From Deinococcales bacterium (GTDB lineage Bacteria > Deinococcota > Deinococci > Deinococcales > JAAFIG01), in assembly GCA_013298595.1 (NCBI GenBank), contig JAAFIG010000019.1:1-49439 (forward strand): a DNA stretch of 49,439 nt, read 5' to 3'. Positions 1-49,439 of this stretch are shown piece by piece. The notes under the pieces were generated by a model that had not been told where the DNA came from, made no database searches, and saw nothing but the letters and a program-made list of their open reading frames with translations. How positions within the stretch are numbered: the stretch's first letter is position 1; every line of letters starts with the position of its first letter. A program made the translations under genes and the position numbers.

Positions 1-562
1 ATTGAAGGCTCGAAAACGAGTTTGTCTCGTCAACAACAACCACACTGTCAAAGATCACACCCGCATTCGAGATGGTCTCGAACGAGGCGACGAAGAATGT
101 ATCACTAGTTTGATATTGTGTCAACAGGTAGCAAGGTGTTTGATCATAGTTTCGAGAAGTGCGTGAAAGACGGATAAGGTCTGTGCTGAATCGCTCGGGA
201 CTTGAAAAATAACGGGTGTGTGAACTCAGGTATAAGAAAGTAATGACTCGATAAGGCGAGGTATAAGTTAAAGAACCTTTTGTGTGTTTCTGACAATAAG
301 AAAGAGGCATTAATAGCTTTTGCGTTGATGTTGTACTATGAAATTTCAAGCTTAATAACTTTGAAGTGTCTTATTGCTTAATTGATTACACTCTCAAATT
401 CTGGCGATGTAACTAACCTGCGCTTCGGGTGCTGGCATAAACCCTTGGGCTAGATCAAGTGCAAATTTTTGCATTATTGCCTGCTACACACCTCGAGAAA
501 CACTTTGCTATTTTATAACCCTTGACCATTGACTGCATTCGTGCTTACAATAACTTCAGATG
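1..562. other. Unassigned non-coding DNA at left edge
   Basis: No convincing open reading frame, ribosome site or known RNA is visible here. The stretch has several short self-complementary pieces (for example around 8-20, a UUCG-type loop near 420-435 and a TGCAAA/TTTGCA pair near 461-474). It holds broken relatives of CTCGAG but no exact copy until 492. It ends at a strong terminator-like structure (563-654), so it may be the tail of a structured transcript or an rRNA-operon spacer, but I see no conserved rRNA, tRNA, tmRNA or RNase P sequence to support that. Confidence 0.4.
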
Positions 563-654
563 CTTCTGACCGCACGAGCTTGATCGCACAAGACAGCCCC
601 GAATAGGGGAGGGTCTTGTGCGAATCTAAACTCGAGAATGTCAGAAGTTTTTTT
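563..654 (+). terminator. Nested hairpin ending in T7 (terminator or small structured RNA)
   Basis: An outer 8-bp stem pairs 563-570 with 640-647 and is followed directly by seven Ts (648-654). Inside it is an 11-bp perfect stem (584-594 with 613-623) capped by a CCCC/GGGG hairpin (597-600 with 606-609). The outer stem plus T-run is a Rho-independent terminator shape. The long inner stem suggests the 3' end of a structured RNA or a leader upstream of the aminotransferase gene. I could not match it to a riboswitch class. Confidence 0.6.
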
Positions 655-695
655 ATGCCTACTCGAGGATTCGTGCCAAGTCGAAAGGAAACCTT

Positions 696-1844
696 ATGAC
701 TCAGTATCTCGAGCAAGTGCTACTCACCCCTGGTCCTACACCCATTGAACCTCATGCCCAGAAAGCCTTGGGCTTTGCCATGCGTGGACATATGGATCCC
801 GAAGTTTTCGCGGTGAATGCAAGAGTACAAGCCAATTTACGAACCTTATACGGCACAGATGCTAATGCGTTTACATGTTTACTGGCTGGTACAGGTAGCC
901 TCGGTATGGAAGCGGGTTTTGCAAATTTACTCGAGCCACAAGATAAAGTGCTGATTTGTGCTAATGGTAGCTTTGGGTATCGTATGGCAGAAATGTCTGA
1001 GCGTCTTGGAGCTAATGTCACAGTGGTCAAAGCTCCAATTGGACAAGCTATTCAACTCGAGGATGTTAAAACTGCACTCGAGGCAGATGCGTTTAAGTTG
1101 GTGGCTGTGGTGCATGGTGAAACCAGTACTGGTGTTTTGAACCCAGCTATTGAAGTTGCTCAACTTGCTAAATCCTACGGCTCGTTAGTGACTGTGGATG
1201 CTGTTACAACCGCAGGCATGATGCCATATCATATGACCGAATGGGGCATAGACTATGCTTATACAGGTAGCCAAAAATGTCTTAGCGCTCCTCCTGGTGT
1301 TGCACCCGTGGCATTCTCGAGCAGTGCAATAAAAGCTGTGGAAAATCGTACATCTAAAGTGCCATTATGGTACGCCGATCTTGAAGGCTTACAAGCTTAC
1401 TGGGATCGCCGCGAATATCATCACACTGTGCCAGTACAATTGCATTATGCCTTGGATGCTGCCCTGACCGCTGCACTCGAGGAAGGATTGCCCACCCGAG
1501 CTAAACGCGTTCAGGAAGTTGGCGGGGCTGCTCTGGCTGCCCTCGAAACAATCGGTTTTACTGCTTTTGTCGAACGCCCCGAGCACCGCTTACCAACAGT
1601 ACTAGCCGTGCGTTTACCTGAGTATATTCAAGATGTTCCAGTGCGCTCGAGCCTACGAGAACACAACGTCATTATTACAGGTGGACTTGGCGAAACGGCT
1701 GGTAAAATCTGGCGATTAGGTCTCATGGGCGAAAGTGCTCGCCCTGCGATTTACCATAAGTTCTTTGCAGCGCTCGAGAAAGTGCTAAATGTTAAAGGTT
1801 TAATAACAGCCTTCGATCAACAACTTGGTGTTAGCACCCGTTAA
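696..1844 (+). CDS. Alanine-glyoxylate / serine-pyruvate type aminotransferase (class V, PLP)
   Basis: This is a fold-type I, class V pyridoxal-phosphate aminotransferase of 382 residues, the usual family length. The N-terminal [11 protein letters not shown], the central VHGETSTGV and TVDAVTT segments and the [11 protein letters not shown] motif are hallmarks; Lys194 in the last is the expected PLP Schiff-base lysine. The family moves an amino group from alanine or serine to glyoxylate or pyruvate in the cytoplasm; the true donor cannot be read from sequence. The start has an AAAGGA ribosome site about 8 bases upstream. The stop codon overlaps the next gene's start (TAATG), so the two are probably co-translated. 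The gene lies just after the 563-654 terminator-like element. At least eight CTCGAG copies fall inside it. Confidence 0.9.
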
Positions 1845-2236
1845 TGCCAGAGTTTCGATTAACTTTGTACATCCTCGGATTTGCCCTCAGTTGCGTGGCA
1901 TTGCTGCGTTGGTTGTGGGCATTTCTACGTCACGGCAATGTACATGCAGCCAGCCGTTTTGCCATTATTGCTTTGCTCGTCTCGAGTTTTGACACAGTCT
2001 TACAAATTTTCTCGAGCCAAGAACGAATCTACTTATTTAAAGAATGGCATGGCATTGCTAGAGGCATTGCACTTGTGTTTATCCCACTGGTTTTTTGGTT
2101 AGATACTCGAGTCAAAAAATTGGATGCTCGAGCAACTTTTGTACCCGTTTTTATGGTTTGGTTGCTGGTATCGGCACCGTTTTTCTTAGTTAATTTATTT
2201 GTTGTTGCGATCACGTTTTTTCTGGGAAAAATCTGA
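1844..2236 (+). CDS. Small integral membrane protein of unknown function
   Basis: A 130-residue, very hydrophobic protein with about four predicted membrane segments (around residues 5-28, 38-56, 72-86 and 98-127) and a short cytoplasmic Lys/Arg-rich loop (DTRVKKLDAR). I recognise no domain. It begins at the overlapping TAATG junction with the aminotransferase gene and ends just before a strong bidirectional terminator, so it is the second and last gene of a two-gene operon. Translational coupling is the only clue to function. Homology would need a search. Confidence 0.7.
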   Translation: MPEFRLTLYILGFALSCVALLRWLWAFLRHGNVHAASRFAIIALLVSSFDTVLQIFSSQERIYLFKEWHGIARGIALVFIPLVFWLDTRVKKLDARATFVPVFMVWLLVSAPFFLVNLFVVAITFFLGKI

Positions 2237-2252
2237 GTTCTCGAGTGACAAA

Positions 2253-2282: not shown

Positions 2283-2296
2283 GATAAGAACAACGA

Positions 2297-4527: not shown

Positions 4528-4533
4528 GTTTGT

Positions 4534-4680: not shown

Positions 4681-4686
4681 GCAGCC

Positions 4687-4782: not shown

Positions 4783-5377
4783 TCCAATTGAACTTGACCG
4801 TCCTGTGTCTTGGGTGGCATTGGTTGGTTTTATGGGTACAGGTAAAAGCCGAATTGGTTGGGAGTTATCCAGGGCTTTGGCGCTGCATTTTTTTGATACC
4901 GATAAGGTAATTGAAAAAGTGGCTGGTCTAACGGTGGCTCAGATTTTTGAAGCGTATGGCGAACTAACATTTCGAGCTTATGAATCTGAAACAGTGGATC
5001 GTTGTACAGCCTTAGATGAAGCAGTGATTTCTTGTGGTGGTGGTACATTTAATAATCCCGAAAATCGGTTGAAACTACTGGCTCGAGGTCCTGTGGTTGC
5101 ACTATCGGCAAGCCCAGAAACAATTCTCGAGCGTACTAAACGCAGCCCTCGAGTGCTTTTACAAGTACCAGACCCGTTAAAGAAAATTCGTGAATTGCTT
5201 GAAATTAGAAAACCTTTTTATGACGAAGCCCCAATTCAAGTTTCCACTGATGGGCGTTTACGTCGAGAAGTGGTACAAGAAATTGTGGAAAAACTCGAGT
5301 CTTGGTACGAAAGGAGCGATGAATTTCATGTTGTCAATCGTGATGAAAACTTGGAACATATCGCACAAAATCCATGA
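4766..5377 (+). CDS. aroK: Shikimate kinase
   Basis: Cytoplasmic shikimate kinase, which phosphorylates shikimate at the 3-OH with ATP in the pathway to chorismate. About 203 residues, slightly longer than the usual 170-190. The P-loop is GFMGTGKSRIG, the substrate Asp region is FFDTDKVIE, the shikimate-binding glycine motif is SCGGGTF, and the lid region carries RSPRVLLQ in place of the common RPLL. I choose ATG 4766 because a GGGGG stretch lies about 5 bases upstream; GTG at 4754 is the alternative. The start is overlapped by the Phe-rich leader frame, and the stop overlaps the dprA start (ATGA), so leader, aroK and dprA form one operon. Confidence 0.92.
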   Translation: MSRIGDPIELDRPVSWVALVGFMGTGKSRIGWELSRALALHFFDTDKVIEKVAGLTVAQIFEAYGELTFRAYESETVDRCTALDEAVISCGGGTFNNPENRLKLLARGPVVALSASPETILERTKRSPRVLLQVPDPLKKIRELLEIRKPFYDEAPIQVSTDGRLRREVVQEIVEKLESWYERSDEFHVVNRDENLEHIAQNP

Positions 5378-6447
5378 CCGAACTTCGAGCTTCGCTTGCC
5401 TTATTTTTCACACCAGGACTTGGCGCTGTCCGAGTTAAAGCCTTAATCGAACATTTTGGTAGTGCCCAAGCAGTGCTGAAAGCAAAACTGCTCGAGTTAC
5501 GAGATGTCCCAGGTTTAGATGCTGCCAGTGTAGCAGCTATTGGTTCAGAAGCAACTTTTGCTCGAGCTGATACCGAACTTGAACGTGCCGAAAAACTCGG
5601 TTTGACAATACTGGGTTTATCCGACTCGAGATACCCTGAAGCATTACGAGCCATTTACGACCCGCCACCAGTACTTTGGGTGCGTGGCGACCTTGCACCT
5701 CTCGAGGCACTCAAAGGTGTTATACCGCGTAGTGTTGGAGTGGTGGGCACTCGTAAAGCCAGCACCTTTGCAAAGGCATTTACCCAGAAATTAGCCCACG
5801 ACCTAGCCTTGGTTGGTGTGACTGTTATCTCGGGCTTAGCCAGAGGTATAGATACCGTGGCACACAGTGCTGCGGTAGATGCTGGTGGCTCGAGTATTGC
5901 TGTGCTGGGTTGCGGCGTGGACACCATTTATCCAAGCGAAAACAAAGCTCTTTCCGACAGATTAACTGTGATATCCGCTTACAGTATTGGCACACCACCG
6001 AACGCCTATAACTTCCCACCACGCAACCGTATCATCGCAGGATTAAGCAGTGGCAGTGTCGTTGTTGAAGGCGACATAGATAGTGGTGCAATGATTACCG
6101 CAGTTGCAGCCCTCGAGGCAGGACGAGAGGTTTTTGCTGTTCCCGGACGCGCAGGCGATCCGCTGGCTCGAGGTCCGCATAAACTGATTAAAGAGGGCGC
6201 TGCTCTGATCGAATCTGCTGCCGATGTGCTCGAGGCATTACATTGGAAAGCTGCGCCGCCCAGAATCGCACCTGCACTCGAGGGCGATGAAGCAACAGTT
6301 TACAACGCCCTCGAGAACGAAATGCTACTCGATGATATTTGTCTACGCACCAATTTCCCTACAGCTCGAGTCACTGTTGCCCTGATGATGCTAACCCTGA
6401 AAGGCGTGGTACTCGAGTTACCCGGTGGGCGTTACAGCAAAGGCTAA
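5374..6447 (+). CDS. dprA: DNA-processing protein DprA
   Basis: DprA loads RecA on single-stranded DNA taken up during natural transformation. The 357 residues show an N-terminal helix-hairpin-helix/SAM-like part, a Rossmann DprA core with GVVGTRKAS, ISGLARGIDTVAH, the ssDNA-binding Pro-rich stretch YNFPPRNRIIAGLS and the VVVEGDIDSGAMITA motif, then a C-terminal winged helix after about residue 300. All family motifs are intact, so the cell is probably transformable, which fits a Deinococcus-like organism. Translation is coupled to aroK by an ATGA overlap at 5374-5377. Confidence 0.95.
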   Translation: MTELRASLALFFTPGLGAVRVKALIEHFGSAQAVLKAKLLELRDVPGLDAASVAAIGSEATFARADTELERAEKLGLTILGLSDSRYPEALRAIYDPPPVLWVRGDLAPLEALKGVIPRSVGVVGTRKASTFAKAFTQKLAHDLALVGVTVISGLARGIDTVAHSAAVDAGGSSIAVLGCGVDTIYPSENKALSDRLTVISAYSIGTPPNAYNFPPRNRIIAGLSSGSVVVEGDIDSGAMITAVAALEAGREVFAVPGRAGDPLARGPHKLIKEGAALIESAADVLEALHWKAAPPRIAPALEGDEATVYNALENEMLLDDICLRTNFPTARVTVALMMLTLKGVVLELPGGRYSKG

Positions 6448-11486: not shown

Positions 11487-11830
11487 AAGCGGGTAGCTAC
11501 TAGCTAAAACCTTACCCTTGAGCCAATATCCCTACGTTTTTCCCGTAGGGGCGGGGCTTGCCTCGCCTGCTTGAGAATCAATAAAATGGTTTAGCGAGGA
11601 AAAATAACAACATATCTCGAGGGTGGGATTGTCAGTATCGTGTCGCACACCCTCACCCGACTCGCCTTAGGCTCGTCACCCTCCCCCGCCAAAAAGGGCG
11701 CGGGGGAGGGTTATTTGGGTTGCTTTGGTTTTTCAATTGATGCCTATCGGGTTTAATTTTCTTGAGTTTAATTGTGTGCCTTTGAGCAGAATCGCTTGTC
11801 TCGCCCAACCTGAGTTACCCATTTTCTGGG
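11487..11830. other. Intergenic DNA with GC-rich palindrome, no gene
   Basis: No coding frame is credible. The stretch holds a GTAGGGGCGGGGCTTGCC-type repeat-like segment near 11544-11562 and a perfect 11-bp GC-rich hairpin (11679-11689 with 11700-11710), followed by TTATTT. This looks like a REP/MITE-type repeat or a terminator. I see no second copy in the window. Confidence 0.45.
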
Positions 11831-14443
11831 CTATGTTTTGACTGGTATTGATTGCCGATGTTCACGCCATCGTTTTTGGTACTCGAGGGGGAGTGTTTGC
11901 TCGAGTTGTTGTTCGAGTTGGGTGATGGCTGGGTTTGGTTGGTTGGTTGCTTGCTCGAGTTCATCGAGTAGACCTAGGCGAAAGAGTGGTGGGATGGTTT
12001 GCTCGAGTTGTTGTGTGGCTGCGTCGAGGGTGCTGGGTTGTACTTTGCTTAGGGTATTTTCGGTTTGTAGTAGGAGTGTTATTCGTTGGGTTTCGCGTAA
12101 TGTTGTGCGTTCGTTGTATTCGAGTAATTGCTTGGCTCGCGTGGGTTGTCCTGCTTCAAGGTAGGTTTGGGCGTGAAGCAGTGTGCTGGGGTAGACATTG
12201 GATGCTAAATTCTGGTGTTGCTCGAGGATGGCTTCTAGGGTTTTGAGGGTTTTACTGGCTGCTTTTGGTGTTGTTTGGATTAGATTATGGCGCACTCGAG
12301 CCAGTTGAATCAGTGGGCGTGATTTTTCGAGATCGGGGCTTTGACAGAGTTGTTCGGCTTCTTCGATGCGTTCTAAGGCTTCGGGGCGTAATCCCAAATC
12401 TAAATAGCGATGGATCAGCCACTCGAGCCGTTCGATTTGATAACTGAGTACTCCAAGTCGTTGGTAACAAGCTAATCCCAGTTTGCCTTCCTCGAGTTGT
12501 TGCCCTAAGTTGCCTAGAAATGCGTGAATGGTGCTGCGTTGTTCGCGGAAAATGCCTTCGTACATGGCATCGTCTGGGCTGATGCTGATGCCTGTTTCAG
12601 TGTGTGTCCAAGCAATTTGCCAGTGGTATTGGGCGATGGCATTGCCAGCTAAACTCCATAAGGCATGGCGTTGTAAGCGTACATCCTCGATTTCTTTGGC
12701 TCGAGTGTAGGCTTGTTCGTATTGCATGGTGGCTTTGTTGCGTTCGTTGTTTTGGGCTAATAAAGACCCTGCGTGTAATCGGGCTGAAATCTCGCCACTG
12801 TAATTTCCACCTCGGCGGTACGATTCTACGGCTAAGGCATTGAGTTTCTGGGCTTTGCTGAGGTCTCCTAAGCGGTTGGCACAACCTGATAATCCAGTGT
12901 AAATTTTGGCTTTGAAATCATGTTCGGTTTCGGGTATCAGCTCGAGAGCAGTGCTGTGAAATCCTTGTGCTTGTCGTGGTTTTTGTAAGTATTCAAAGGC
13001 ACGTCCGATATAAAAATTGGCTCTGGCTTGATCGGTGCGGTTAGCGTGTTGGTGTTGCTCGAGTAAATGCTGGCAGCGTTCTATGCACGCTTGGTATTCG
13101 CTGGTCTCGAGGAAGAATTCGGCTTCAAATAACAGGGCTTCGGTTTCAAAAGCAGGGTTGTGGCTTTGTCCTGCTTGCCAGAGCATGGCTTCAATACTTT
13201 TGTGCCATGCAGCGCGGTTGTCTAAGCGGCGTTCAAGGCGACTCGAGGCGCAGTGTAATTCGTAGAGTGCGGTTGGGTCTTTGCTTAAATCAATTGCTTC
13301 TTGGTAACAGCTTAATGCCAGTGTGGGATTGTTGGTATTGTTTTCCTCGGCAGCTTTTTTTGCCCAGAGAATAATTTTGCTTGGGTCATGAGCGGCTTTG
13401 GCATGGTGCAGTAATCGCAGTGCGTTCAGACCAGCGCTCGACTCGAGGAAGGTTAGAATTCGGGCGTGGAGTAAAGTTTGGGCTGGTTTAGAAACTTGTT
13501 GTAAAACACGGTTGCGAATGTTTTCGCTGAGGCACATTCCATTTGTTAAAAAACCTTGTTGCTCGAGTTCATCGGCAGCTTCAAGAAAATCAAAGGCTTT
13601 TGAATCAAGTACAGCTGCGGCAAGTTCAAGCGAGAAATCTTGTTCGGCAAGAGCAGCGATTCTTAGTAAATCCCGAGCCGCTTTGGATAACGTCTCGAGT
13701 TGTCCAAGGTTTTTCTTTGGCTCGAGAATGGGTTCGGCAACGGGTAATTCTAAACGCAATTCCGAAGCCAGTGCCAGTGTTTCAACCGAAACACCAATGC
13801 CTAACTCGAGGCGTAAACGTTGCTCGAATTGCTTTAAGTACTCTAAAGCTCGAGCGGTTTCGTTCATGCCATGCAGCGTACTCATCGCGCCTCGCAAAGC
13901 CGATTCGCGTAAATCATCTAAAGCTAGGGCTTGTTCAAAACACTGCAAAGCGGCAACAAATTGTCCTCGAGTTGCTAGTTGCTCAGCGTGCATTTCTAAG
14001 GCATTGGCATAATCGCTGTTGTGCTGTTCACGCAGCCGCTCGAGCCACGCTTCGATCTCAGGAGCTTCGGCAAATTGCCACCCTGCACAGAACACACCGC
14101 GCCGCAACGCAATGGCTTCTGCCCACTCGAGCCGCTGCACATGATGCCAGAACAATTCAAGATCGGTCTGAGCATTCTGTAAAGACAACACACTGTTTTC
14201 CTCGAGAACAAAAGCACTAACAGGTGTTTGGTTAAGCCGAAATAATTCGCGGCGCAAATTGGCTCGAGCGCGATCATCCACGACTTCCCAGAAAAGTTGG
14301 GCTAGTGTGGCTCGAGGTTGCGCTCCTTCGACAGCAATATAAGCCAGAATCGCCATTAGTTTACGGGTTGGCAAATGCACAGTTTCTTGTCCGATGCGCC
14401 AGATTGGCTCACCAAGCAATGATAGTGTGGCTGTTTGCTCCAT
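11831..14443 (-). CDS. BTAD/SARP-type transcriptional activator with TPR region
   Basis: 870 residues. Residues 1-90 form an OmpR-like winged helix (LSLLGEPIWRI, LPTRKLMAILAYIAVEG, RANLRRELFRLN) and about 95-235 a bacterial transcriptional activator domain (AALQCFEQALALDDLRESALRGAM). The rest is helical tetratricopeptide-like repeats, including ARANFYIGRAFEYLQKPRQA. No Walker motifs are present, so it lacks the ATPase module of larger relatives. It would act in the cytoplasm as a DNA-binding activator. The start at 14443 lies six bases after a TAGAAT box with no ribosome site. The first 17 codons and promoter are duplicated at 16437-16505. Its targets are unknown; the envelope genes next door with the shared motif are candidates. 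Confidence 0.88.
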   Translation of the reverse strand: MEQTATLSLLGEPIWRIGQETVHLPTRKLMAILAYIAVEGAQPRATLAQLFWEVVDDRARANLRRELFRLNQTPVSAFVLEENSVLSLQNAQTDLELFWHHVQRLEWAEAIALRRGVFCAGWQFAEAPEIEAWLERLREQHNSDYANALEMHAEQLATRGQFVAALQCFEQALALDDLRESALRGAMSTLHGMNETARALEYLKQFEQRLRLELGIGVSVETLALASELRLELPVAEPILEPKKNLGQLETLSKAARDLLRIAALAEQDFSLELAAAVLDSKAFDFLEAADELEQQGFLTNGMCLSENIRNRVLQQVSKPAQTLLHARILTFLESSAGLNALRLLHHAKAAHDPSKIILWAKKAAEENNTNNPTLALSCYQEAIDLSKDPTALYELHCASSRLERRLDNRAAWHKSIEAMLWQAGQSHNPAFETEALLFEAEFFLETSEYQACIERCQHLLEQHQHANRTDQARANFYIGRAFEYLQKPRQAQGFHSTALELIPETEHDFKAKIYTGLSGCANRLGDLSKAQKLNALAVESYRRGGNYSGEISARLHAGSLLAQNNERNKATMQYEQAYTRAKEIEDVRLQRHALWSLAGNAIAQYHWQIAWTHTETGISISPDDAMYEGIFREQRSTIHAFLGNLGQQLEEGKLGLACYQRLGVLSYQIERLEWLIHRYLDLGLRPEALERIEEAEQLCQSPDLEKSRPLIQLARVRHNLIQTTPKAASKTLKTLEAILEQHQNLASNVYPSTLLHAQTYLEAGQPTRAKQLLEYNERTTLRETQRITLLLQTENTLSKVQPSTLDAATQQLEQTIPPLFRLGLLDELEQATNQPNPAITQLEQQLEQTLPLEYQKRWREHRQSIPVKT

Positions 14444-14557: not shown

Positions 14558-14590
14558 ATTTCAATAAATGTTGAAATATGCTATTATAAT
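14558..14590 (+). promoter_or_regulatory. Promoter and inverted-repeat operator of the AbiE-like pair
   Basis: A consensus -10 box TATAAT (14585-14590) lies seven bases before the ATG at 14598. Directly upstream is a perfect 7-bp inverted repeat, ATTTCAA (14558-14564) and TTGAAAT (14571-14577). AbiEi antitoxins of studied systems repress their own operon through inverted repeats. Confidence 0.6.
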
Positions 14591-14597
14591 GAAAATT

Positions 14598-15608
14598 ATG
14601 GAAGAAAAAAATATTCAAACACAGTTGCAAGAATTACTAAGCCGAGTACCAGACATACGACTGGACATGGAAACATTGACCATTCATAAAGATAAATACA
14701 AGTGGCAAATCAAATGGATTGACTTACCCCATGTGTCACCACGAAAAGCACAACTGGAAAGTCTGAACATCCTTAAAAACAAGCAGTCGAACTTGTTGCA
14801 AATTCTGGTTGCCCCTTGGATCAGCCCAGAAAGCGCAGCTATACTTACCCAAGAAAACATTAATTACCTCGATGAACAAGGCAATGCCCGAATAGCCTTT
14901 GGGAATACCTATATAGAACGATTGGGTTATCCTGCACCAAAAGCCGAAAAACGGTACTTGCGATCTATTTACAACCCAATTAGTTCTCGGGTTTTACGTG
15001 TACTACTGCAAAAACCAAGCCAAACATGGACACTGACCGCCTTAGCTAAAGCAGCCCAAGTTAGCATTGGGCAAGTCTATAACGTCAAAAACTTCTTACT
15101 CGAGCAAAGCTGGCTTAATCACCCAATCAGTCAAAAGGCAGTGCCATTACAGCTGACTCAACCACTTAAACTACTCGAGGCTTGGCGTTTGCAATACAAA
15201 CCAACAGGCAAAAAACAAGGATTTTATACACTCGAGAATCACAAAGGTATTGAACAGGCATTGCAACAAATCTCATCCCAAGAACTGGTTCTGGCGGGTC
15301 TTCATGCCGCAAAATTTATCATGCCGTACAGCAAATTTGTAACAACACAACTTTATGCCACGAAAAAAGGACTCGAGCAATTACAAGCTATTATGCAGTT
15401 AAAACCAGTAACTCGAGGAGAAAACATTCTGATTTACTTAGAACCCGATAAAGGAATTTTTTTTGATGCAAATCAGAATAATCAAGGTATTTGGCAAACC
15501 AGTCCAATTCAAACGTACCTCGATTTGCACGACCTCGGAGAACGAGCTTCTGAAGCTGCTGAGTACATGATGCAACACACCATCCTGCCATTGTGGGAAC
15601 AAACATGA
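14598..15608 (+). CDS. Type IV toxin-antitoxin system antitoxin, AbiEi-like
   Basis: 336 residues. Residues about 68-110 (ILVAPWISPESAAILTQ, then INYLDEQGNARIAF) match the conserved core seen in AbiEi-family antitoxins. About 147-173 is a helix-turn-helix (TALAKAAQVSIGQVYNVKNF), and the C-terminal YLDLHDLGERASEAAEYM is also family-typical. AbiEi proteins block the partner nucleotidyltransferase and repress their operon. I choose ATG 14598 because TATAAT lies seven bases upstream; 14568 and 14589 would place the -10 box inside the gene. The stop overlaps the toxin start (ATGA). The pair lies between 69-bp direct repeats, suggesting insertion or a local duplication. Confidence 0.78.
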   Translation: MEEKNIQTQLQELLSRVPDIRLDMETLTIHKDKYKWQIKWIDLPHVSPRKAQLESLNILKNKQSNLLQILVAPWISPESAAILTQENINYLDEQGNARIAFGNTYIERLGYPAPKAEKRYLRSIYNPISSRVLRVLLQKPSQTWTLTALAKAAQVSIGQVYNVKNFLLEQSWLNHPISQKAVPLQLTQPLKLLEAWRLQYKPTGKKQGFYTLENHKGIEQALQQISSQELVLAGLHAAKFIMPYSKFVTTQLYATKKGLEQLQAIMQLKPVTRGENILIYLEPDKGIFFDANQNNQGIWQTSPIQTYLDLHDLGERASEAAEYMMQHTILPLWEQT

Positions 15609-22196: not shown

Positions 22197-22319
22197 TGTA
22201 ATTGAAATGACTTAACGCAACCTTAACTTTTTCGGCTATACCTAAACACCATTGAACTAACCCAAAAAATGTAGGCATAGAACAAGTATACTTTGAAAAG
22301 TTGATAAGGAGTGTGCTTG

Positions 22320-23234
22320 ATGTTGGTGCTAATTAGTAAAGAAAATATCTTCAACAAAAACTATTACCTCGAGTATTTTAAGCAACGTGGTATGGAATCA
22401 TTAGCCGAACTCGAGCGTGAAATCGGACGAAATCAACATAAAGAACTTGCGGCTGGACTGAATAAAGCATGTCAAGAAAGTCTACGAATTGTTGTCAATG
22501 TTCTTCTTGGGATGAAATTATCCCAAGAAGAACAGCTTTCAGCTATTTTGCTGGTGCATTACTCAACATATGTTGTGATGCTTGAGTTGCGTAACCAAGT
22601 TTGGCAGTATGAGTACATGGCATTTTCAAGGCGAATTGGTGAACTTTGGGAAGCATTTATTCGTGTGGTGTTTGAATATGCACCAAACCAATTGCAGCAT
22701 TTTGTACCACCGTTATTTGTCGATGTACGACAAAAACTGAAATCTGAAATCGTCCAATACATTCAAACACTACCACTTGCGGCTCAACAAAGCCAAGAAT
22801 TGCTCGAGTATTACGAAAAAGTCTGGTTGTTAGTTGATTCTGGAGAAATCAATTTGCAATTGGATTTGCATATCCAAATCGCGCAACAAAAAATCAATAT
22901 TGACTTAAAAAGTGGCTTTGGTTCAAATGAAAAAGGAAATACTAATCGTTTATTGATGGTCGCAACAATTTACCAGAACCTCGAGCTTGGGTATGAGAAT
23001 ATACTTTTGGTCAGGGCTTTGGAAGACCAGAATAATCATTATTTTCGGGTGTTAAAAAATTCTAGTGTTTGGAGTGCTTTTTGTGGTGCAGATGCTTATG
23101 CAAAAATTGGTCAATTAACTGGTTTTGATATTGCTTTATGGATTCAAACCAACATTGATTGGCAAAAAGATTTTTCAGCATTGACTGTAAAACAACTACA
23201 AAACAACCAATTACTTTCGTATTTGGAGTGGTGA
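22320..23234 (+). CDS. Probable type II restriction endonuclease (PD-(D/E)xK)
   Basis: 304 residues. I infer a restriction endonuclease from a PD-(D/E)xK-like core, LDLHIQIAQQKINIDLKSGFG (Asp182, then Asp195-Leu-Lys197), preceded by a helix with RRIGELWEAFI (Glu112), and followed by SNEKGNTNRLL and a conserved-looking KNSSVWSAFCG. It lies one base before an adenine methyltransferase gene, the usual layout of type II systems. The start at 22320 has AAGGAG eight bases upstream; GTG 22311 would overlap that site. Site specificity is not readable. The surplus of CTCGAG and the TaqI/XhoI-like class of the partner make CTCGAG, or its core TCGA, a hypothesis worth testing. Confidence 0.62.
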   Translation: MLVLISKENIFNKNYYLEYFKQRGMESLAELEREIGRNQHKELAAGLNKACQESLRIVVNVLLGMKLSQEEQLSAILLVHYSTYVVMLELRNQVWQYEYMAFSRRIGELWEAFIRVVFEYAPNQLQHFVPPLFVDVRQKLKSEIVQYIQTLPLAAQQSQELLEYYEKVWLLVDSGEINLQLDLHIQIAQQKINIDLKSGFGSNEKGNTNRLLMVATIYQNLELGYENILLVRALEDQNNHYFRVLKNSSVWSAFCGADAYAKIGQLTGFDIALWIQTNIDWQKDFSALTVKQLQNNQLLSYLEW

Positions 23235-23235
23235 C

Positions 23236-24735
23236 ATGACACTTGCTACCTCACAGCGTCACCAAGATACCTACCGAGCTTTTTATACGAGTAATCAGCC
23301 ATTGGTGCAGTACATGATTCAATTGCTTGAACCACAAGCAGGGGATTGCTGTCTCGAGCCTTCAGCAGGTCATGGTTTTTTTATTGATGGCTTACTAACT
23401 GCACAAAAAAACTTACAGATCCAAGCGATTGACTTAGCCCCAGAAGCTATCCGAGTTTTACAAGAAAAGTACGTACTGAATCATCAAATTGAAATTCTGC
23501 AACAAGATTTTCTATTATCCGGAGATCAGCAACAACACAGATTTAACCGCATTATTGCCAATCCACCGTATGGTGCTTGGCAAGATTACCAAAAACGCAA
23601 TCTTTTGAAAACTATTTTTCCAGATTTATATGTCAAAGAATCTTATGGTTTATTTATTGCAAAAAGTCTTAGCTACTTAAAACCAGATGGTCGAGCTGTG
23701 TTTATTATCCCAGAAACCTTTTTATATTTACATTTGCAACAAGGCTTACGACAAAGAATTCTCGAGCATTACTCAATCGTCTCAATTGATATTTTCCCGT
23801 CAAAAGTTTTCCCAAATGTCGATTTTGGTTATGCAAAAATGTGCATTATTGTGATTGAGAACAAAAAACCAAACAAGCAACAAACTTTTTTAATTCAACA
23901 ATGTGCTCATGCAGCTCAATTATTTTCTCGTTCTGGTAGTCAGTTTTATATTCAACAAAACGCTGTTCTTAGCCGCCCAGCAATGACTTTCCCACTCCAA
24001 GGTCACTCCGCACAAACGCATTTAATTGACACAGCTTCAATCCAATTAGGCGACATTGCCAATTGTGTGACGGGTTTATACACAGGAGCAGATGGGAAAT
24101 TCTTAAAACGAGCTACTGGTAACACTCGAGGTATGAAAAAATACGTATTGATTGACCCACAAAAAATCAGTGTTAGTACCAAACCAGATTTATATGGATT
24201 TAGCACAGAGCAATGCTTTTTGCCGATTCTCAAAGGTGGAGGTTCTGCCTATCTAAAACCTGTTTCATGGTTTATTGATTGGAGCGAATTAGCTGTTCAA
24301 CATTATCAAAGTGATAGTAAAGCAAGGTTTCAAAATAGCCAATTTTACTTTTCGCAAGGCATTGGTTTTCCAATGGTCAGTTCAGCTCGAGCGACAGCTT
24401 CAATCATAGAACCTACATGGTTATTTGATCAATCTGTAGTTGGAGTATTTCCAAAAAAGCCAGAGTATTTTGGTTTTTTACTGGCATTTTTGAACTCGAG
24501 TATTTGCTGGCAATTGTTGCGCCAAATTAACCCATCGGCGAATAATTCAGCTAGGTACTTAAAACGCTTACCAATTATCTTACCAACTACAAAGCAACTG
24601 CTTTGGTTTGACCAAACGATATCAAGCTATGTGGCACAACTCAAACAAAACTTTACTCGCGATGTCGCTCTTGAGATGCTGCTTGATCAAAAAATTTTGC
24701 AATTATACCCGAGTTTAATAGAAAATAAGACCTAG
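23236..24735 (+). CDS. N6-adenine DNA methyltransferase, gamma class (TaqI-like)
   Basis: 499 residues. The SAM-binding motif I is CLEPSAGHGFF (about 39-49), the catalytic motif IV is IIANPPYGAW (NPPY 109-112), and the order I before IV with a large C-terminal target-recognition region (after about 260) is that of gamma-class enzymes such as M.TaqI and M.PaeR7I. It transfers a methyl group to N6 of adenine in the cognate site. Its start follows the endonuclease stop by one base, with GGAG about 8 bases upstream. The stop overlaps the convergent ABC transporter gene by four bases. With the preceding gene it makes a complete candidate type II restriction-modification system. Confidence 0.85.
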   Translation: MTLATSQRHQDTYRAFYTSNQPLVQYMIQLLEPQAGDCCLEPSAGHGFFIDGLLTAQKNLQIQAIDLAPEAIRVLQEKYVLNHQIEILQQDFLLSGDQQQHRFNRIIANPPYGAWQDYQKRNLLKTIFPDLYVKESYGLFIAKSLSYLKPDGRAVFIIPETFLYLHLQQGLRQRILEHYSIVSIDIFPSKVFPNVDFGYAKMCIIVIENKKPNKQQTFLIQQCAHAAQLFSRSGSQFYIQQNAVLSRPAMTFPLQGHSAQTHLIDTASIQLGDIANCVTGLYTGADGKFLKRATGNTRGMKKYVLIDPQKISVSTKPDLYGFSTEQCFLPILKGGGSAYLKPVSWFIDWSELAVQHYQSDSKARFQNSQFYFSQGIGFPMVSSARATASIIEPTWLFDQSVVGVFPKKPEYFGFLLAFLNSSICWQLLRQINPSANNSARYLKRLPIILPTTKQLLWFDQTISSYVAQLKQNFTRDVALEMLLDQKILQLYPSLIENKT

Positions 24736-28462: not shown

Positions 28463-29395
28463 ATGAAACAAGCTGCTGCAATAAAAGTACGTACTACCCT
28501 ACAGCGAAAAGCTTGGTGGAGAGCTTTTCTTAACCGCGAAGCCATAACAGCATATCTGTTTATTTTGCCTGCTATGCTTGGGTTTGCTGTATTTTATTTA
28601 TACCCAACCTTGCGTGGTTTACAAATTAGTACTACCGATTGGAATTTACTAAGCGACCCAGATTTTGTTGGACTCGAGAATTACCAAACCATGTTTCAAG
28701 ACCCTGTTTTTTGGAATGCTTTACGGGTTTCTGGAATTTATGTCTTACTGAATATTCCTGTGCAAACCATTGTTGGGCTGTTTTTAGCAGTCGCAATGGA
28801 TCGCTTAACCCGTTCTATGCTGGTAAGGGCAGCATTAATAGTTCCGTATCTCATTTCTAATGTCATTGCCGCAATGGTTTGGTTATGGTTGTTAGATCCT
28901 TTTCTTGGAATTGTTAACAGTGCTTTAACTACGTTAGGTTTTTCGTATCAATCGTTTTTTGGTACACCCGAATTGGCTCTGCCTACCATCGCAGGTGTAA
29001 ATATCTGGCGGCATATGGGGCTAACTGCCTTACTATTTTATGCTGGTTTACAGGGTATTCCACGTTCTGTTTACGAAGCAGCAATGATTGATGGTTCTGA
29101 TGAAATCACAACTTTTTGGCGCATAACGCTACCGTTACTACGACCAGTCACAGTTTTTGTTTTGGTTACGAGTATTGTTGGTTCATTCCAGATTTTTGAT
29201 ACCATCGCAGTTGCCACTGGTGGTGGACCAGTAGATGCCACTCGAGCTTTGGTTTTCTACATTTACGATAACGCCTTTAAGTTCTTCAAAATGGGGTATG
29301 CCTCTGCCATGGCAATTACCTTATTTGCGATCCTTATTTTCTTTTCAATTGTGCAATTGCGTTTATTTCGTGCTGACCAATCAGATTTATCTTAA
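28463..29395 (+). CDS. Carbohydrate ABC transporter permease, MalF/UgpA-like
   Basis: 310 residues, six transmembrane helices. The cytoplasmic EAA loop EAAMIDGSDEITTFWRITLPLL, which docks the ATPase, is intact. It should form the membrane channel with the MalG-like protein encoded next. The start has an AGAGAGG site. No ATPase gene is in this operon, so the pair probably uses a shared MsiK-type ATPase encoded elsewhere. With a GH4 glycosidase and LacI regulator downstream, the cargo is likely an alpha-linked oligosaccharide; that is inference. Few CTCGAG copies occur here. Confidence 0.9.
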   Translation: MKQAAAIKVRTTLQRKAWWRAFLNREAITAYLFILPAMLGFAVFYLYPTLRGLQISTTDWNLLSDPDFVGLENYQTMFQDPVFWNALRVSGIYVLLNIPVQTIVGLFLAVAMDRLTRSMLVRAALIVPYLISNVIAAMVWLWLLDPFLGIVNSALTTLGFSYQSFFGTPELALPTIAGVNIWRHMGLTALLFYAGLQGIPRSVYEAAMIDGSDEITTFWRITLPLLRPVTVFVLVTSIVGSFQIFDTIAVATGGGPVDATRALVFYIYDNAFKFFKMGYASAMAITLFAILIFFSIVQLRLFRADQSDLS

Positions 29396-29416
29396 ATCTC
29401 TCGAGGAGAAAACCCT

Positions 29417-29821
29417 ATGAGCCAAGCATCTAAAATTTCCAGCCGAGTTGTACAACGTTTCAGTTTTGGGCGTGGGCTTGCTTGGTTTCTATTGTTAATT
29501 TTTATTTTTATTTCCATCTTCCCAGTTTACTTTGTTTTAAAAACAGCGCTAACCAGCCATAAAGTTCTTGGTGAAAGTGCTTCAAGTTTTTTACCTGCAG
29601 AAGCTACTTTTTTTAACTTTGCTCGAGTCTTGGGGTTAGTTCCGAGCGAAGCTGCCCAAGCTGCTGGTGCGAGTGCCGAAACAATTAATTTTGTTGGGGC
29701 TTTACAAATCACATGTTTGTATGTACTTGTGACAGTGGTAGGACAAATCCTATTTAGTGCTTTGGCTGCCTATGCTTTTGCGCGATTACGTTTCCCTGGA
29801 CGCAATATATTATTTTTTTAG
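29417..29821 (+). CDS. Carbohydrate ABC permease, MalG-like, N-terminal part (frameshifted)
   Basis: 134 residues: first helix (FLLLIFIFISIFPVYFVL), periplasmic loop and the start of the membrane core (VTVVGQILFSALAAYAFARL). The frame then meets a stop at 29819-29821, right after a run of seven Ts (29813-29819). If the run had eight Ts, the frame would continue as NILFFLVLSAMMIPSIV into the next ORF, giving a normal MalG-like protein of about 305 residues. The cause may be a true mutation, an assembly or sequencing error, or a slippage site read by the polymerase. The start has a GAGGAGAA site. Confidence 0.85.
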   Translation: MSQASKISSRVVQRFSFGRGLAWFLLLIFIFISIFPVYFVLKTALTSHKVLGESASSFLPAEATFFNFARVLGLVPSEAAQAAGASAETINFVGALQITCLYVLVTVVGQILFSALAAYAFARLRFPGRNILFF

Positions 29822-29832
29822 TACTCAGTGCA

Positions 29833-30333
29833 ATGATGATTCCAAGTATCGTATTGTTTATTCCTAATTTTATTCTGATGAAGAATTTAGGTTGGTTAAA
29901 CACATTCCAAGGTATGATTGCGCCATCATTGTTGATGAGTCCATTCTCAGTGTTTTTCTTACGGCAATTTTTTCTGAGTATTCCACTTGAACTCGAGGAA
30001 GCAGCAAAACTTGATGGTGCAACCTCGGCTTTTATTTTCTGGCGAATTGTTTTACCACTTGCACAAGGTCCGATTGCAACATTGGGGATTTTGACTACGA
30101 TTGCAATGTGGAACGATTTTTTCTGGCCATTTATTGTTAATTCAGGTTCAAATGAAAATCTTCGTGTTTTAACCGTTGCTTTACAGCAATTTCGGGCTAA
30201 TCAACCTGGTGGTCCACCGGATTGGACTGGTTTGATGGCAGGTACTTTCCTGAGTATTGTTCCAGTTTTTGTTTTACTGATTTTTATGGGACGTAAAGTG
30301 GTTGAATCTTTGCAATTCAGCGGTTCTAAGTAA
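29833..30333 (+). CDS. Carbohydrate ABC permease, MalG-like, C-terminal part
   Basis: 166 residues carrying the rest of the MalG-like core: the EAA loop ELEEAAKLDGATSAFIFW..LP and the last helices (LSIVPVFVLLIFMGRKVV). ATG 29833 is only an internal Met; there is no ribosome site, so this part is probably made only if the frame at 29813-29819 is restored. Sequence conservation of the C-terminal half is excellent, with no further damage, which speaks against an old pseudogene. Confidence 0.82.
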   Translation: MMIPSIVLFIPNFILMKNLGWLNTFQGMIAPSLLMSPFSVFFLRQFFLSIPLELEEAAKLDGATSAFIFWRIVLPLAQGPIATLGILTTIAMWNDFFWPFIVNSGSNENLRVLTVALQQFRANQPGGPPDWTGLMAGTFLSIVPVFVLLIFMGRKVVESLQFSGSK

Positions 30334-30428
30334 TTTTTACAAACTACGCTCGAGTTTTTTAGAGCTTATAAAGGAGGTTTATCGCAATCGTCGGTTCGGT
30401 TCGGCATTTCAATTTTTATGGAGGAAGT

Positions 30429-31757
30429 ATGAAAAAACGGTTTGTTGCATTGGGTTCAGCGGTGTTGGCTTTAACAGTGGCTCTTATTCCGAGTCAAGCG
30501 CAAAGTGTGAGTATTGATTACTGGTTATGGGATACCAGTCAAGAACCAGCTTACAAAGCTTGTGCCACTAATTTTGAAAAACAAAATGGTATTAAAGTCA
30601 ATGTCATCCAAAAAGGTTGGGATAATTATTGGACTGGTATTACTACAGGCATGGTGGCAGGTAATGCTCCAGATATTTTTGCTAATCACCTTGCTAAATA
30701 CCCAGAGTACGCTTTGAATAAGCAAATTGTGGATATTGCACCTTGGATTGCCGAAGATAAAGTAGCAACAAATATCTACACTGGCGATTTGTTTAAACTT
30801 TGGGGACGCGCTGGTAAGCAATACGGTTTGCCTAAAGATTGGGATACTGTTGCTATTATTTACAACAAAAAGATGCTTAAAGATGCTGGTATCAGTGAAG
30901 CAAGCATGAATAGCCTGACTTGGAATCCAAAAAATGGTGGTAGCTTTGAAAGATTAATTCAAAGACTCACTGTTGATGGAAGCGGTAAACGCGGTAATGA
31001 AGCAGGCTTTGATAAGAATACAGCTAAGCAATGGGGTTGGACAAGCCTCAATGGAAATAGCTCTGGTGGTGCCTATGGGCAAACCGAATGGAGTCATTTT
31101 GCTGTTTCAAATGGCTTTAAGTTTAACGATGGTCCTTGGTCAACAAAGTATTACTACGACGATCCAAAACTGGCTGAATCGTTACAATGGCAAGCTGATA
31201 TTAGCTTGAAAAAAGGTTACTCCCCGTTATTTAAAGATATCAAAGCTACTCGAGGTGACACATTATTTACAAGTAGTAAAGTTGCTATGATTTTTGATGG
31301 TTCATGGATGATAGGTTCGTATAAAGCAAATTCCAAATTTGATATTGGTTTTGCCCAATTGCCAGTTGGTCCAAAAGGACGCAAAACGATGTTCAATGGT
31401 TTAGCTGATTCCATCTGGGTTGGTAGCAAAAAGCAAAAAGAAGCTTGGCAATGGTTAAAATATATGGGATCTGCCGCTTGCCAAGATGTCGTTGGTGGCT
31501 TTGGTGTTGTCTTCCCAGCCATTCCAAGTGCCGTCAATAAAGCTTTAGCTGCATTTAAAGCTAAAGGTGCCGATGTCAGTGCGTTCACCAAGCAAGCCTT
31601 GGCAAAAGACACCACATTCTTATTCCCAATCACAGATAACTCTTCGGAAATCAGTGCAATTATGGAAAAAGCCACGGACAAGATTTTCCTTGGGCAATCA
31701 GATGCTGCTAGTACCTTAACTGAAGCCGCACCAAAAGTTAACGCACTCTTTAAGTAA
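30429..31757 (+). CDS. Extracellular solute-binding protein, family 1 (sugar)
   Basis: 442 residues, with a signal peptide (MKKRFVALGSAVLALTVALIPSQAQS) and a periplasmic-binding fold of the maltose/oligosaccharide type (ANHLAKYPEYALNKQIVDI, YGLPKDWDTVAIIYNKKML, WQWLKYMGSAACQDVVG). It captures the sugar and delivers it to the upstream permeases. The start has a GGAGGAA site. The gene order permease-permease-binding protein is less usual than binding protein first. An internal terminator (31768-31795) follows, so this is probably the end of the main transport transcript. Only one CTCGAG is found in 1.3 kb, the lowest density of any long gene here. Confidence 0.92.
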   Translation: MKKRFVALGSAVLALTVALIPSQAQSVSIDYWLWDTSQEPAYKACATNFEKQNGIKVNVIQKGWDNYWTGITTGMVAGNAPDIFANHLAKYPEYALNKQIVDIAPWIAEDKVATNIYTGDLFKLWGRAGKQYGLPKDWDTVAIIYNKKMLKDAGISEASMNSLTWNPKNGGSFERLIQRLTVDGSGKRGNEAGFDKNTAKQWGWTSLNGNSSGGAYGQTEWSHFAVSNGFKFNDGPWSTKYYYDDPKLAESLQWQADISLKKGYSPLFKDIKATRGDTLFTSSKVAMIFDGSWMIGSYKANSKFDIGFAQLPVGPKGRKTMFNGLADSIWVGSKKQKEAWQWLKYMGSAACQDVVGGFGVVFPAIPSAVNKALAAFKAKGADVSAFTKQALAKDTTFLFPITDNSSEISAIMEKATDKIFLGQSDAASTLTEAAPKVNALFK

Positions 31758-47443: not shown

Positions 47444-47459
47444 AGTGTCAGTTTACAAC

Positions 47460-48095
47460 TTAGCTTTGTTGTACCAAATTGACTGCCATTACAAAATGAG
47501 CCACACTGCCTGACAAAACAAATAAATGCCAGATTTCATGCGGAGTCCACCAGCCACGTTTCCAAGGACGTTGCCCTAAAGCATAAAAAGGCACACCAAA
47601 AGTATAAAAAAGTCCGCCAATCACCAAAGCCAGCAAAGAAGGAAACGGCAAACCAACCATAAATTTAGGAAATAACAACACTGCAACCCAACCCATACCC
47701 ACATAAATCAGTAATGAAAACCATTCAGGTGGTTTGGACACAGACTTTAAAACAATACCAAAAGCAGCTACCAACCAAATACCAACCAACCAATAAAACC
47801 GCATTTGCCCCTCGAGCACAACCCATAAAATAGGTGTGTATGTACCAGCAATCAGCAAATAAATAGCACTATGGTCAAAGCGGCGCAAACCTTCCTCGAG
47901 CAAAGCTGAACCACGCACGCCATGATGTAAAGTGCTCGCCACGTAACACGTAATCATGGTGATACCAAAAACCACAATAGCCCAATGCCCACGAGATAAC
48001 CAAGCCAGCACAATGGTAAAAATAAGTGCCATTGCAGCCCCTAAGCCATGCGTAATAGTGTTAATGGGTTCGCGGAAACTTGAAACAAAATTCAC
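47460..48095 (-). CDS. Hemolysin III family membrane protein (PAQR-like)
   Basis: 211 residues with seven transmembrane helices. Conserved His/Asp zinc-type residues appear in REPINTITHGLGA, STLHHG, RRFDHSAIYLLIAGTYTP and PHEIWHLFVL. Despite the name, the cellular role of most bacterial members is unclear (membrane lipid homeostasis is proposed). The start is GTG 48095, six bases after TAAAGT (48102-48107), again a leaderless pattern. Confidence 0.92.
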   Translation of the reverse strand: MNFVSSFREPINTITHGLGAAMALIFTIVLAWLSRGHWAIVVFGITMITCYVASTLHHGVRGSALLEEGLRRFDHSAIYLLIAGTYTPILWVVLEGQMRFYWLVGIWLVAAFGIVLKSVSKPPEWFSLLIYVGMGWVAVLLFPKFMVGLPFPSLLALVIGGLFYTFGVPFYALGQRPWKRGWWTPHEIWHLFVLSGSVAHFVMAVNLVQQS

Positions 48096-48143
48096 CTGTG
48101 CACTTTACAAAGTTCATGATGAGAATGCTAAACTCTGAACCTT

Positions 48144-48220
48144 GCGCTCGTAGCTCAGTAGGATAGAGCGAGGCACTCCTAAGGCTTAGGTCACCCGTTC
48201 GATTCGGGTCGAGCGCACCA
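48144..48220 (+). tRNA. tRNA-Arg (anticodon CCT)
   Basis: A full cloverleaf: acceptor 48144-48150 with 48210-48216, D-arm GCTC/GAGC, anticodon loop CTCCTAA giving CCT (reads AGG), T-arm ACCCG/CGGGT, discriminator A and an encoded CCA end. The anticodon stem is poor for a tRNA: AGGCA with GGCTT leaves an A-G mismatch at 31-39 and a G-U pair at 28-42. A -35-like TTTACA (48104) and TAAACT (48129-48134) lie upstream. Confidence 0.93.
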
Positions 48221-48222
48221 CA

Positions 48223-48250
48223 AACCCCATGCAAATGGGGTTATTTTTTT
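48223..48250 (+). terminator. Terminator of the tRNA gene
   Basis: An 8-bp stem (48223-48230 with 48235-48242), GCAA loop, then a seven-T run to 48250. It overlaps the end of the convergent ACT-like gene (stop from 48241). Confidence 0.92.
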
Positions 48251-48633
48251 GTTAAAGCCAGTAAAGCCTGCATTGCTGCTTCAGCTTGATGCACAGGAAC
48301 AAAAATATGATCATGATAAAATCCAGCCATAACATTGCAAGCAATGCCAGCCTCTCCAAGCGCACTCGAGAAAGCAGCGGTTAAACCCACTGCCTCTAAA
48401 CTCGAGTGAACTGTTAAACTAATCCAAGCGCATTCAAAACTAAACTCGAACTTGTGTTGCAATGCAATACTTTTCTCGAGAATAACCGTTATACCTTCGG
48501 TTTCGCAAAAAGTAGCAATGGCTTTTTCTGGAATACTCGAGCCAATAGGCAAGCAGACGTACACAAAAACTTCTGCGTTCAACACAGGTTGCATTGAACG
48601 CAGAAGAGTCTCTAAATTGCTGATTGGGTTCAT
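48241..48633 (-). CDS. ACT-domain-like protein
   Basis: 130 residues starting MNPISNLETLLRSMQPVL. The pattern VFVYVCLP, GITVILEKSIAL, FECAWISLTVHSSLEAVGLTAAF, GIACNVMAGFYHDHIFVPV matches a small ACT-like family (two ACT repeats, as in aspartate kinase regulators), which usually binds amino acids. The start at 48633 overlaps the stop of the multicopper oxidase gene (ATGA), and AGTATA on the plus strand gives a TATACT box eight bases upstream, so it may be expressed both from the operon and alone. Confidence 0.75.
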   Translation of the reverse strand: MNPISNLETLLRSMQPVLNAEVFVYVCLPIGSSIPEKAIATFCETEGITVILEKSIALQHKFEFSFECAWISLTVHSSLEAVGLTAAFSSALGEAGIACNVMAGFYHDHIFVPVHQAEAAMQALLALTKK

Positions 48634-49439
48634 GGTAAAACAGTATAACGTGCTGTCATTCCTGCAACAATGTGATCGTTGACATGGCAGTGCAGTAACC
48701 ACGTTCCAGGATTACGTGGACGCATATCAGCTTGTTTCATGCTACCAGGCAGTAACTCGAGCATATCCATTCGCATACCCGCATAAGTAATGGTTTCGCC
48801 ATGCCAATGCGGGGTGTGTAAATCTACTTCTGTTCCCATGCCAAGGGTGTACCAACGCACACGCTCACCAACCCGCATGACTAAACCCGGTACATTGCCG
48901 TAGACAAAACCATTAATGCCGTGCATCAGGTTTGATTCAGCAAATTCTTCATCGTTACCCTCTTTGAGTTTTTCGTACTTAGGTAATGGTGCAAAATTGA
49001 GATCAGCTAACAAACTCGAGTTTTCATCGTTCACTTGGTATAACGTCACAAATTCACGATCAACATCTTTTGGACTACCATCAGGTTTAGCTTGACCTTT
49101 AGCTGTCACAACCAGTGCTCCAACTAAACCAGCATACGTATCAGCTACTTCATCGGTATGCGAATGATACATCCAAATAGCACTCGAGCCATCCATTGTA
49201 GCCGGACCACTGGCAGCATCGGCAAGCCATTCATAGGTAAATGTTTGACCTGGCGCAATCGCATCATCCAGTTTATCTTTGCCACTGGTGCCATCATTGT
49301 ACGGTGCACCTTCAGCATTTTTCTTGTACCGCACGCCGTGCACATGAATTGAAACATCATATTTGTACTGAGCAGGTGTTAGGTTCTTAGTCACAACTCG
49401 GATGGTATCGCCAACTTCGGCATGTAACAACGGACCGGT
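48630..49439 (-). CDS. Multicopper oxidase, 5' end beyond the window
   Basis: The visible 269 residues contain all four copper motifs: SIHVHGVRY, WMYHSHTDE, LHTPHWHGETI and WLLHCHVNDHIVAGM (type 1 Cys-His with axial Met). The layout resembles two- or six-domain ceruloplasmin/hephaestin-type enzymes. It oxidises a substrate or metal ion while reducing oxygen to water, normally outside the cytoplasm. The frame is open through the window end (reading TGPLLHAEVGDTIRV), so the N-terminus and any signal peptide lie further right. The stop overlaps the ACT-like gene start. Confidence 0.92.
   Translation of the reverse strand, partial: TGPLLHAEVGDTIRVVTKNLTPAQYKYDVSIHVHGVRYKKNAEGAPYNDGTSGKDKLDDAIAPGQTFTYEWLADAASGPATMDGSSAIWMYHSHTDEVADTYAGLVGALVVTAKGQAKPDGSPKDVDREFVTLYQVNDENSSLLADLNFAPLPKYEKLKEGNDEEFAESNLMHGINGFVYGNVPGLVMRVGERVRWYTLGMGTEVDLHTPHWHGETITYAGMRMDMLELLPGSMKQADMRPRNPGTWLLHCHVNDHIVAGMTARYTVLP

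Follow-up and report, generated by a model that had tools for sequence, protein, structure and literature searches.

What keeps a single six-base palindrome at several copies per kilobase throughout a bacterial genome? The question is raised by contig JAAFIG010000019.1 of a Deinococcales bacterium (assembly GCA_013298595.1), whose entire 49,439 nucleotides we refer to as the window. The initial annotation had described the word CTCGAG in this DNA as a highly iterated palindrome (HIP), some 30 to 40 times more frequent than chance, with about 25 sites in the single gene at 11831–14443. An exact count with positions gave 303 copies, compared with 9.3 expected from base composition, a 32-fold excess; the first copy starts at 492 and the last at 49183, and the gene in question holds exactly 25. 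The genome from which the window derives (G000; 4,582,226 bp in 68 contigs, 94.4% complete) contains 27,159 copies, or 5.9 per kb and one per 169 bp, vs only 15 copies of the reversed control GAGCTC.

The initial annotation had asked for a count of all hexamers, and this was carried out on 974 kb of the window genome. CTCGAG ranks first of 4,096 with 5,613 copies (29.3-fold), and no unrelated hexamer is comparably enriched: the next stands at 4.7-fold once CTCGAG sites are masked, and the second-most enriched palindrome at 2.4-fold. The excess remains 13.7-fold under an order-2 Markov model. An order-4 model expects about 270 copies in the window, a figure that is circular because CTCGAG itself supplies the 5-mers from which it is calculated; when sites were masked, 17 copies were expected in 189 kb and 1,074 were observed. 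Sequence flanking the hexamer is nearly random, with no extended core. Palindromes are otherwise mostly avoided, 30 of the 64 hexamer palindromes in the same 974 kb falling below 0.2-fold of expectation. The top rank, the low runners-up and this avoidance together exclude simple composition bias, and one palindrome thus stands as a genome-wide outlier among all words, as in the HIP class. As a separate observation, GAGCTC, GGCGCC, TTCGAA, CTTAAG and AGGCCT are each missing from the first 189 kb of the genome. Such strong general avoidance of palindromes suggests heavy exposure to restriction; we considered GAGCTC depletion as a special signal and rejected it, since it falls within this general pattern.

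The word is written into DNA of every kind. Per kb, G000 has 5.78 sites in coding and 5.39 in noncoding DNA; the corresponding values are 6.02 and 6.66 in G001, a genome of the same genus, and 6.25 and 6.61 in G003, a member of the same family (f1, four genomes in all). All three reading frames are used, 56% of coding sites lying in frame 0 as CTC-GAG. Relative to a site-masked baseline, the odds in favor of CTCGAG in noncoding DNA are 50–60 in these three genomes; by reading frame, measured against a site-masked or codon-usage baseline, they are 53–121, 39–47 and 30–49. Each site is acted on separately and with about equal strength everywhere, at odds of 30–120 to 1 over the local baseline (ln K ~3.5–4.8). 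The target of this force is the DNA itself and not the codons, and the proposal of the initial annotation that some process at the DNA level keeps or creates the sites is borne out. Its further remark, that the codons CTC, CGA, TCG and GAG occur largely because they lie inside the word, was half right: 51% of CTC and 53% of GAG codons are so placed, but only 36% of CGA and 33% of TCG.

Proteins bear the mark of the same force. In the four f1 genomes, 67–76% of Leu-Glu dipeptides are spelled CTCGAG, vs 2–13% predicted by codon use outside the sites. The dipeptide itself occurs at 2.1–2.5 times expectation in f1 while Glu-Leu, at 0.96–1.03 times, is normal, from which it follows that the process responsible for CTCGAG rewrites protein sequences. 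In 80 control loci from unrelated bacteria, the corresponding values are 1.03 and 0.95.

The initial annotation had also suggested comparing orthologous positions between sister genomes, and this was done both within the genus and across genera. G000 and G001 share 72.5% nucleotide identity over 51 orthologues, and at aligned Leu-Glu pairs G001 carries a site in 88.5% of cases when G000 has one and in 67.3% when it does not (p = 0.0015). Across genera, in the comparison of G000 with G003, memory is lost (78% vs 69%, p = 0.25), while occupancy is fixed. Positions are gained and lost, and occupancy stays near 75%, a turnover toward a fixed equilibrium; because positions are forgotten at constant occupancy, position-specific regulatory roles are unlikely. 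Aligned counterparts of sites are exact in 58% of cases and otherwise several changes away, single-mismatch counterparts making up 5% at CTCGAG vs 33% for GC-matched control hexamers. Strength relative to each alternative spelling of Leu-Glu is of the same order, 16–136 in G000, with CTTGAG the mildest.

Sites do interfere with one another at short range. The fraction of Leu-Glu pairs occupied by CTCGAG is 0.26 when the nearest other site lies 6–12 bp away, 0.41 at 12–18 bp, 0.59 at 18–24 bp and 0.67 at 30–36 bp, and it reaches a plateau of ~0.78 from ~55 bp that holds to 300 bp. The deficit at close range agrees in other frames and genomes, as do pair counts, and neighboring sites exclude each other below ~25–50 bp. 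Avoidance of hairpins was rejected as the source of the deficit, since GC-matched inverted repeats that are not palindromes showed none at 12–48 bp. A role in promoters or terminators was likewise rejected, density staying level near gene ends, with no more than small dips beside start and stop codons.

To place these results in the clade, we used the 111 searchable genomes, which fall into five families (f1–f5) and seem not to include Deinococcus. Density is 5.9–6.5 CTCGAG per kb in all four f1 genomes, at GC contents of ~45–61%. In a second family, two genomes have 6.2–7.7 per kb, a third has 3.6 and a fourth is without enrichment (0.3), and Meiothermus-like and other genera mostly have 1–3.4 ('Meiothermus-like' being a presumptive label taken from kinship). 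Thermus has 0.8 per kb and no excess over GAGCTC. The genus concerned (g7) was identified as Thermus from a protein of its member G007, which matches the ComZ structure 6qvi over nearly its full length (943 bits), the ComZ of 6qvi being a Thermus thermophilus protein; this places the clade in the phylum Deinococcota. CTCGAG is saturated in all of f1, lower in f2–f5 and not enriched in Thermus or in a handful of small genomes. Larger genomes carry it at higher density (Spearman 0.76 across 86 genomes, without correction for phylogeny). A word that persists clade-wide but is lost from reduced genomes is again what is seen in the HIP class. The window genome appears to belong to an uncultured Deinococcota family; the repeat probably dates back to the ancestor of the clade and is strongest in f1.

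Two observations stand somewhat apart from this distribution. In G070 (family f3, L030; GC 47%), CTCGAG exceeds expectation 10-fold by composition and 16-fold at order 2, a moderate form of the f1 repeat. A sample of 1.9 kb of its noncoding DNA contains a single copy, and enrichment in this genome may therefore be confined to coding sequence. Viral contigs with clustered CTCGAG were mostly chance cases of high GC, and none had the f1 pattern. One of the viral contigs, L359 (IMGVR_UViG_3300044492_000233), carries 49 CTCGAG and 2 GAGCTC in 14.7 kb and writes 24 of its 36 Leu-Glu pairs as CTCGAG; this virus may infect a CTCGAG-rich host.

The initial annotation held that only words of the HIP1 type are comparable, and we agree. 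HIP1 (GCGATCGC) of cyanobacteria has the same gross genome-wide excess of one palindrome, clade-wide persistence and loss in some reduced genomes. It differs in phylum and in the word itself, which here is CTCGAG and not GCGATCGC, and measurable rewriting of proteins is found on the CTCGAG side. CTCGAG is also denser, at ~6 per kb compared with mostly 0.5–2.5 for HIP1 and its alternates (PMC4390886). These alternates (GGCGCC in Calothrix 7103, rCCGGy in Oscillatoria 10802 and GCsGC in Cyanothece 7822, each with its methyltransferase; PMC4390886) are likewise palindromes of about hexamer size that take the place of HIP1 at high frequency, but they are sporadic in single strains, whereas CTCGAG is common to a whole family and present at lower density across the clade. 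That no CTCGAG counterpart had been described was also upheld: we found no published CTCGAG HIP in open papers on CTCGAG, on highly iterated palindromes or on these genera, subscription literature lying outside the search. CTCGAG is therefore a HIP-class repeat with a new word, in a new phylum, denser than most HIPs and with a demonstrated effect on proteins.

For an explanation of the repeat, three properties are to be weighed. First, strength is uniform. Second, no effect of density is seen beyond ~55 bp. And finally, close neighbors exclude each other. Taken together these fit a benefit, or a drive, that acts at each palindrome independently, and exclusion over a distance on the scale of a protein footprint tips the balance toward binding by a dimeric protein. 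We favor, at a probability of roughly 40%, a site-autonomous factor of this kind, a palindrome-binding dimeric protein, as what keeps CTCGAG in place. Each palindrome would serve as landing site for an abundant dimeric factor that binds DNA sequence-specifically, such as a nucleoid or genome-marking protein; every occupied site would bring the same small benefit, and a pair lying too near each other for joint binding would count as one. Nucleoid organisation, one of the processes listed by the initial annotation, lies close to this reading and may be at work. Slightly more tentatively, the word may be the landing site of a novel sequence-specific nucleoid or genome-marking protein of Deinococcota, and with that the first HIP independent of DNA methylation.

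Several points weigh against binding by a dimeric protein. The factor is hypothetical, with no protein named. Promoters are not strongly avoided, density only dipping beside start and stop codons, whereas tight binding of a protein could be expected to interfere with transcription. Single-transition neighbors, CTTGAG in particular, are less depleted than others (K ~11–24 vs typically 20–140), a pattern that a simple model of equal fitness does not predict. And a stationary distribution of sites cannot by itself tell whether weak selection or a bias in mutation or repair is at work.

This last point gives its force to the closest rival, a drive by repair or gene conversion in which an enzyme of repair or recombination, specific for the sequence, resolves mismatches toward CTCGAG and sites accumulate as a by-product without benefit. 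Elhai put forward a model of this kind for HIP1; here the drive would have to run without a cognate methyltransferase. Uniform strength irrespective of coding, the overwriting of amino acids, the turnover of positions and the scarcity of single-mismatch counterparts at orthologous positions all fit a drive, and short-range exclusion would arise if an older site nearby competed in short-patch repair. However, transition neighbors persist instead of being cleared, and no CTCGAG methyltransferase was found in saturated genomes. We also sought the shadow of repair tracts around shared sites and saw none, fourfold-site divergence being flat with distance (0.57 near, 0.56 far), although high divergence blunts this test. 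We regard such a drive as nearly as likely as binding by a dimeric protein, since an equilibrium distribution cannot separate the two.

An HIP1-like system, in which a solitary cognate methyltransferase labels DNA at CTCGAG or TCGA as a signal for repair, for the timing of replication or for the control of genes, is the next rival to consider. Its appeal is comparative: HIP1 is accompanied by solitary GATC and CGATCG methyltransferases, and under Elhai's rule every cyanobacterial HIP, HIP1 and alternates alike, has a matching enzyme (PMC4390886). We surveyed methyltransferases (METHYLTRANSFERASES) by mapping five Pfam families (PF07669, PF01555, PF02384, PF00145 and PF02086) over ~20 genomes and clustering them, and no DNA methyltransferase in these families is orthologous across the four f1 genomes. 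Within the window, a restriction-modification pair at 22311–24735 was rejected as the cause because it is confined to the window genome; its methyltransferase has no orthologue in any of 100 relatives, and for that reason cannot explain a family-wide repeat.

Families of CTCGAG methyltransferases were also sought through the neighbors of the XhoI endonuclease family (PF04555). XhoI genes occur in 4 of 101 genomes, none of them saturated, and one copy has internal stop codons; PF04555 is absent from G000–G003, G008, G012 and G016, and PDLC03313 from G000. The window genome was not found to combine the endonuclease with a CTCGAG methyltransferase, as an XhoI/PaeR7I restriction-modification system would. 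Such systems share the target word with the repeat and have the opposite effect. Three f4 genomes with intact XhoI (G018, G042 and G048) have 0.70–0.97 CTCGAG per kb vs 1.65–1.97 in congeners without it, and this halving is the avoidance expected under restriction.

The neighbors of XhoI define two methyltransferase families, gamma (PaeR7I-type) and beta. A phylum-wide search found the gamma family, whose member in G015 shares 59.5% identity with an annotated paeR7IM enzyme, in some Meiothermus-like genomes. The same search did not find it in G000, G001, G003, G008, G012 or G016, all of them saturated with CTCGAG or rich in it and 91–96% complete except for G016 at 58%, and a non-homologous enzyme would escape it; G002 has only a distant paralogue (25% identity). 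For the beta family, compared only with methyltransferases already collected, there is no f1 orthologue, identity over the domain reaching at most ~28%. With the caveats of genome completeness and a possible non-homologous enzyme, Elhai's rule does not hold for CTCGAG, and no cognate methyltransferase was seen to accompany the word as in HIP1 proper. Methylation-directed repair with a cognate enzyme, another suggestion of the initial annotation, finds no support in the saturated genomes tested, where neither the PaeR7I nor the XhoI-partner family was found. The presence of the gamma enzyme also makes hardly any difference to density, Meiothermus-like genomes that carry it falling within the range of those that do not. 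Thermus has a beta homologue yet no enrichment, and one cytosine of the word as a strong hot spot of the 5-methylcytosine type was not seen. A methyltransferase-based system is thus unlikely, despite the solitary PaeR7I-type candidate in a relative described below.

Some of these enzymes merit description in their own right. PaeR7I-type methyltransferases were located at L457:4339-6087 (G015), L460 (G025), L461 (G103) and L462 (G037), all in Meiothermus-like genomes, and that of G015 has no restriction gene beside it and is a candidate solitary enzyme. In G009 (L454:5596-6015 and onward), a stop-interrupted gene of the XhoI family adjoins an intact PaeR7I-type methyltransferase. In the three Thermus genomes checked (L054, L055 and L069), a beta-class methyltransferase is 61–66% identical to the partner of XhoI in f4; judged by this similarity, Thermus may methylate CTCGAG.

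A DNA-uptake sequence, in which transformation prefers fragments with CTCGAG and recombination spreads the word, is less probable still. Words used in DNA uptake make up the other class known to multiply by drive, and the DNA uptake sequence of Neisseria and the uptake signal sequence of Haemophilus resemble CTCGAG in being short words spread in this way across a genome; they are longer, however, as well as non-palindromic and present at about one per kb or fewer. Competence genes exist in the clade, with dedicated proteins in Thermus (ComZ in G007) and dprA in the window; the initial annotation was correct in reporting dprA, but its presence is not evidence for uptake specificity. An uptake signal of only six base pairs would be unusually short. 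At six sites per kb every fragment contains several, so a second copy should be redundant over fragment-length distances and occupancy should depend on density; extra sites are not redundant, because occupancy stays at its plateau from ~55 to 300 bp and a site is kept equally often 100 or 300 bp from its neighbor. The filling of six sites per kb at the plateau rate disagrees both with redundancy in uptake and with the mismatch-repair model of HIP1, under which sites should saturate at about one per kb. A bias in codons, codon pairs or composition, for which the majority of coding sites in frame 0 might speak, is rejected with near certainty on the equal density of noncoding DNA, the use of all three frames, masked models that predict ~60 times fewer sites and the near absence of GAGCTC, which encodes Glu-Leu.

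Coordinates of the features discussed, together with the sites themselves, are collected below.

Positions of CTCGAG and of selected features in the window
Feature	Position	Strand	Observation	Basis
CTCGAG hexamers	492..49188	.	303, ~1 per 163 bp, in nearly every gene and in spacers	Exact count; per-gene counts and frames
dprA (transformation gene)	5374..6447	+		Named in the initial annotation
BTAD/TPR regulator gene, the longest regulator in the window	11831..14443	-	Richest in the window: 25 CTCGAG, frames 18/6/1	
Type II restriction endonuclease, predicted	22311..23234	+	No Pfam match	PADLOC REase_II, E 2.9e-106
Gamma-class N6-adenine DNA methyltransferase, predicted (Eco57I/N6_Mtase, TaqI-like)	23236..24735	+	Pairs with endonuclease 22311..23234	
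ABC-transporter-like operon	28463..31757	+	Sparse CTCGAG, ~1.5 per kb	Counts per open reading frame

The sparse operon is probably recently acquired DNA that is still filling up with CTCGAG. Elsewhere in the window lie an AbiEi/AbiEii-like toxin-antitoxin pair (14568–16393) and a GC-rich inverted repeat (11639–11727) with a similar copy in L262, short matches at 93–95% identity in G003 and weaker ones in G001, which is perhaps a dispersed element or a family of terminators.

HIP1 has gone unexplained for decades and has been regarded as a cyanobacterial peculiarity bound up with DNA methylation. This second case, denser, independently placed and with no cognate methyltransferase found, separates the repeat from methylation. 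It also constrains any model, which must account for equal strength in all DNA, exclusion below ~25–50 bp, no density dependence at longer range, and the rewriting of proteins. In CTCGAG-rich genomes, codon-usage and dipeptide statistics are to be read as the imprint of a DNA word and not as a sign of protein function. Partially enriched relatives appear to include bacteria of the Meiothermus type for which cultures exist, opening the question to bench work. If CTCGAG is indeed a landing site, each genome would hold ~27,000 such sites, maintained by so strong a pull that Leu-Glu is written into its proteins.

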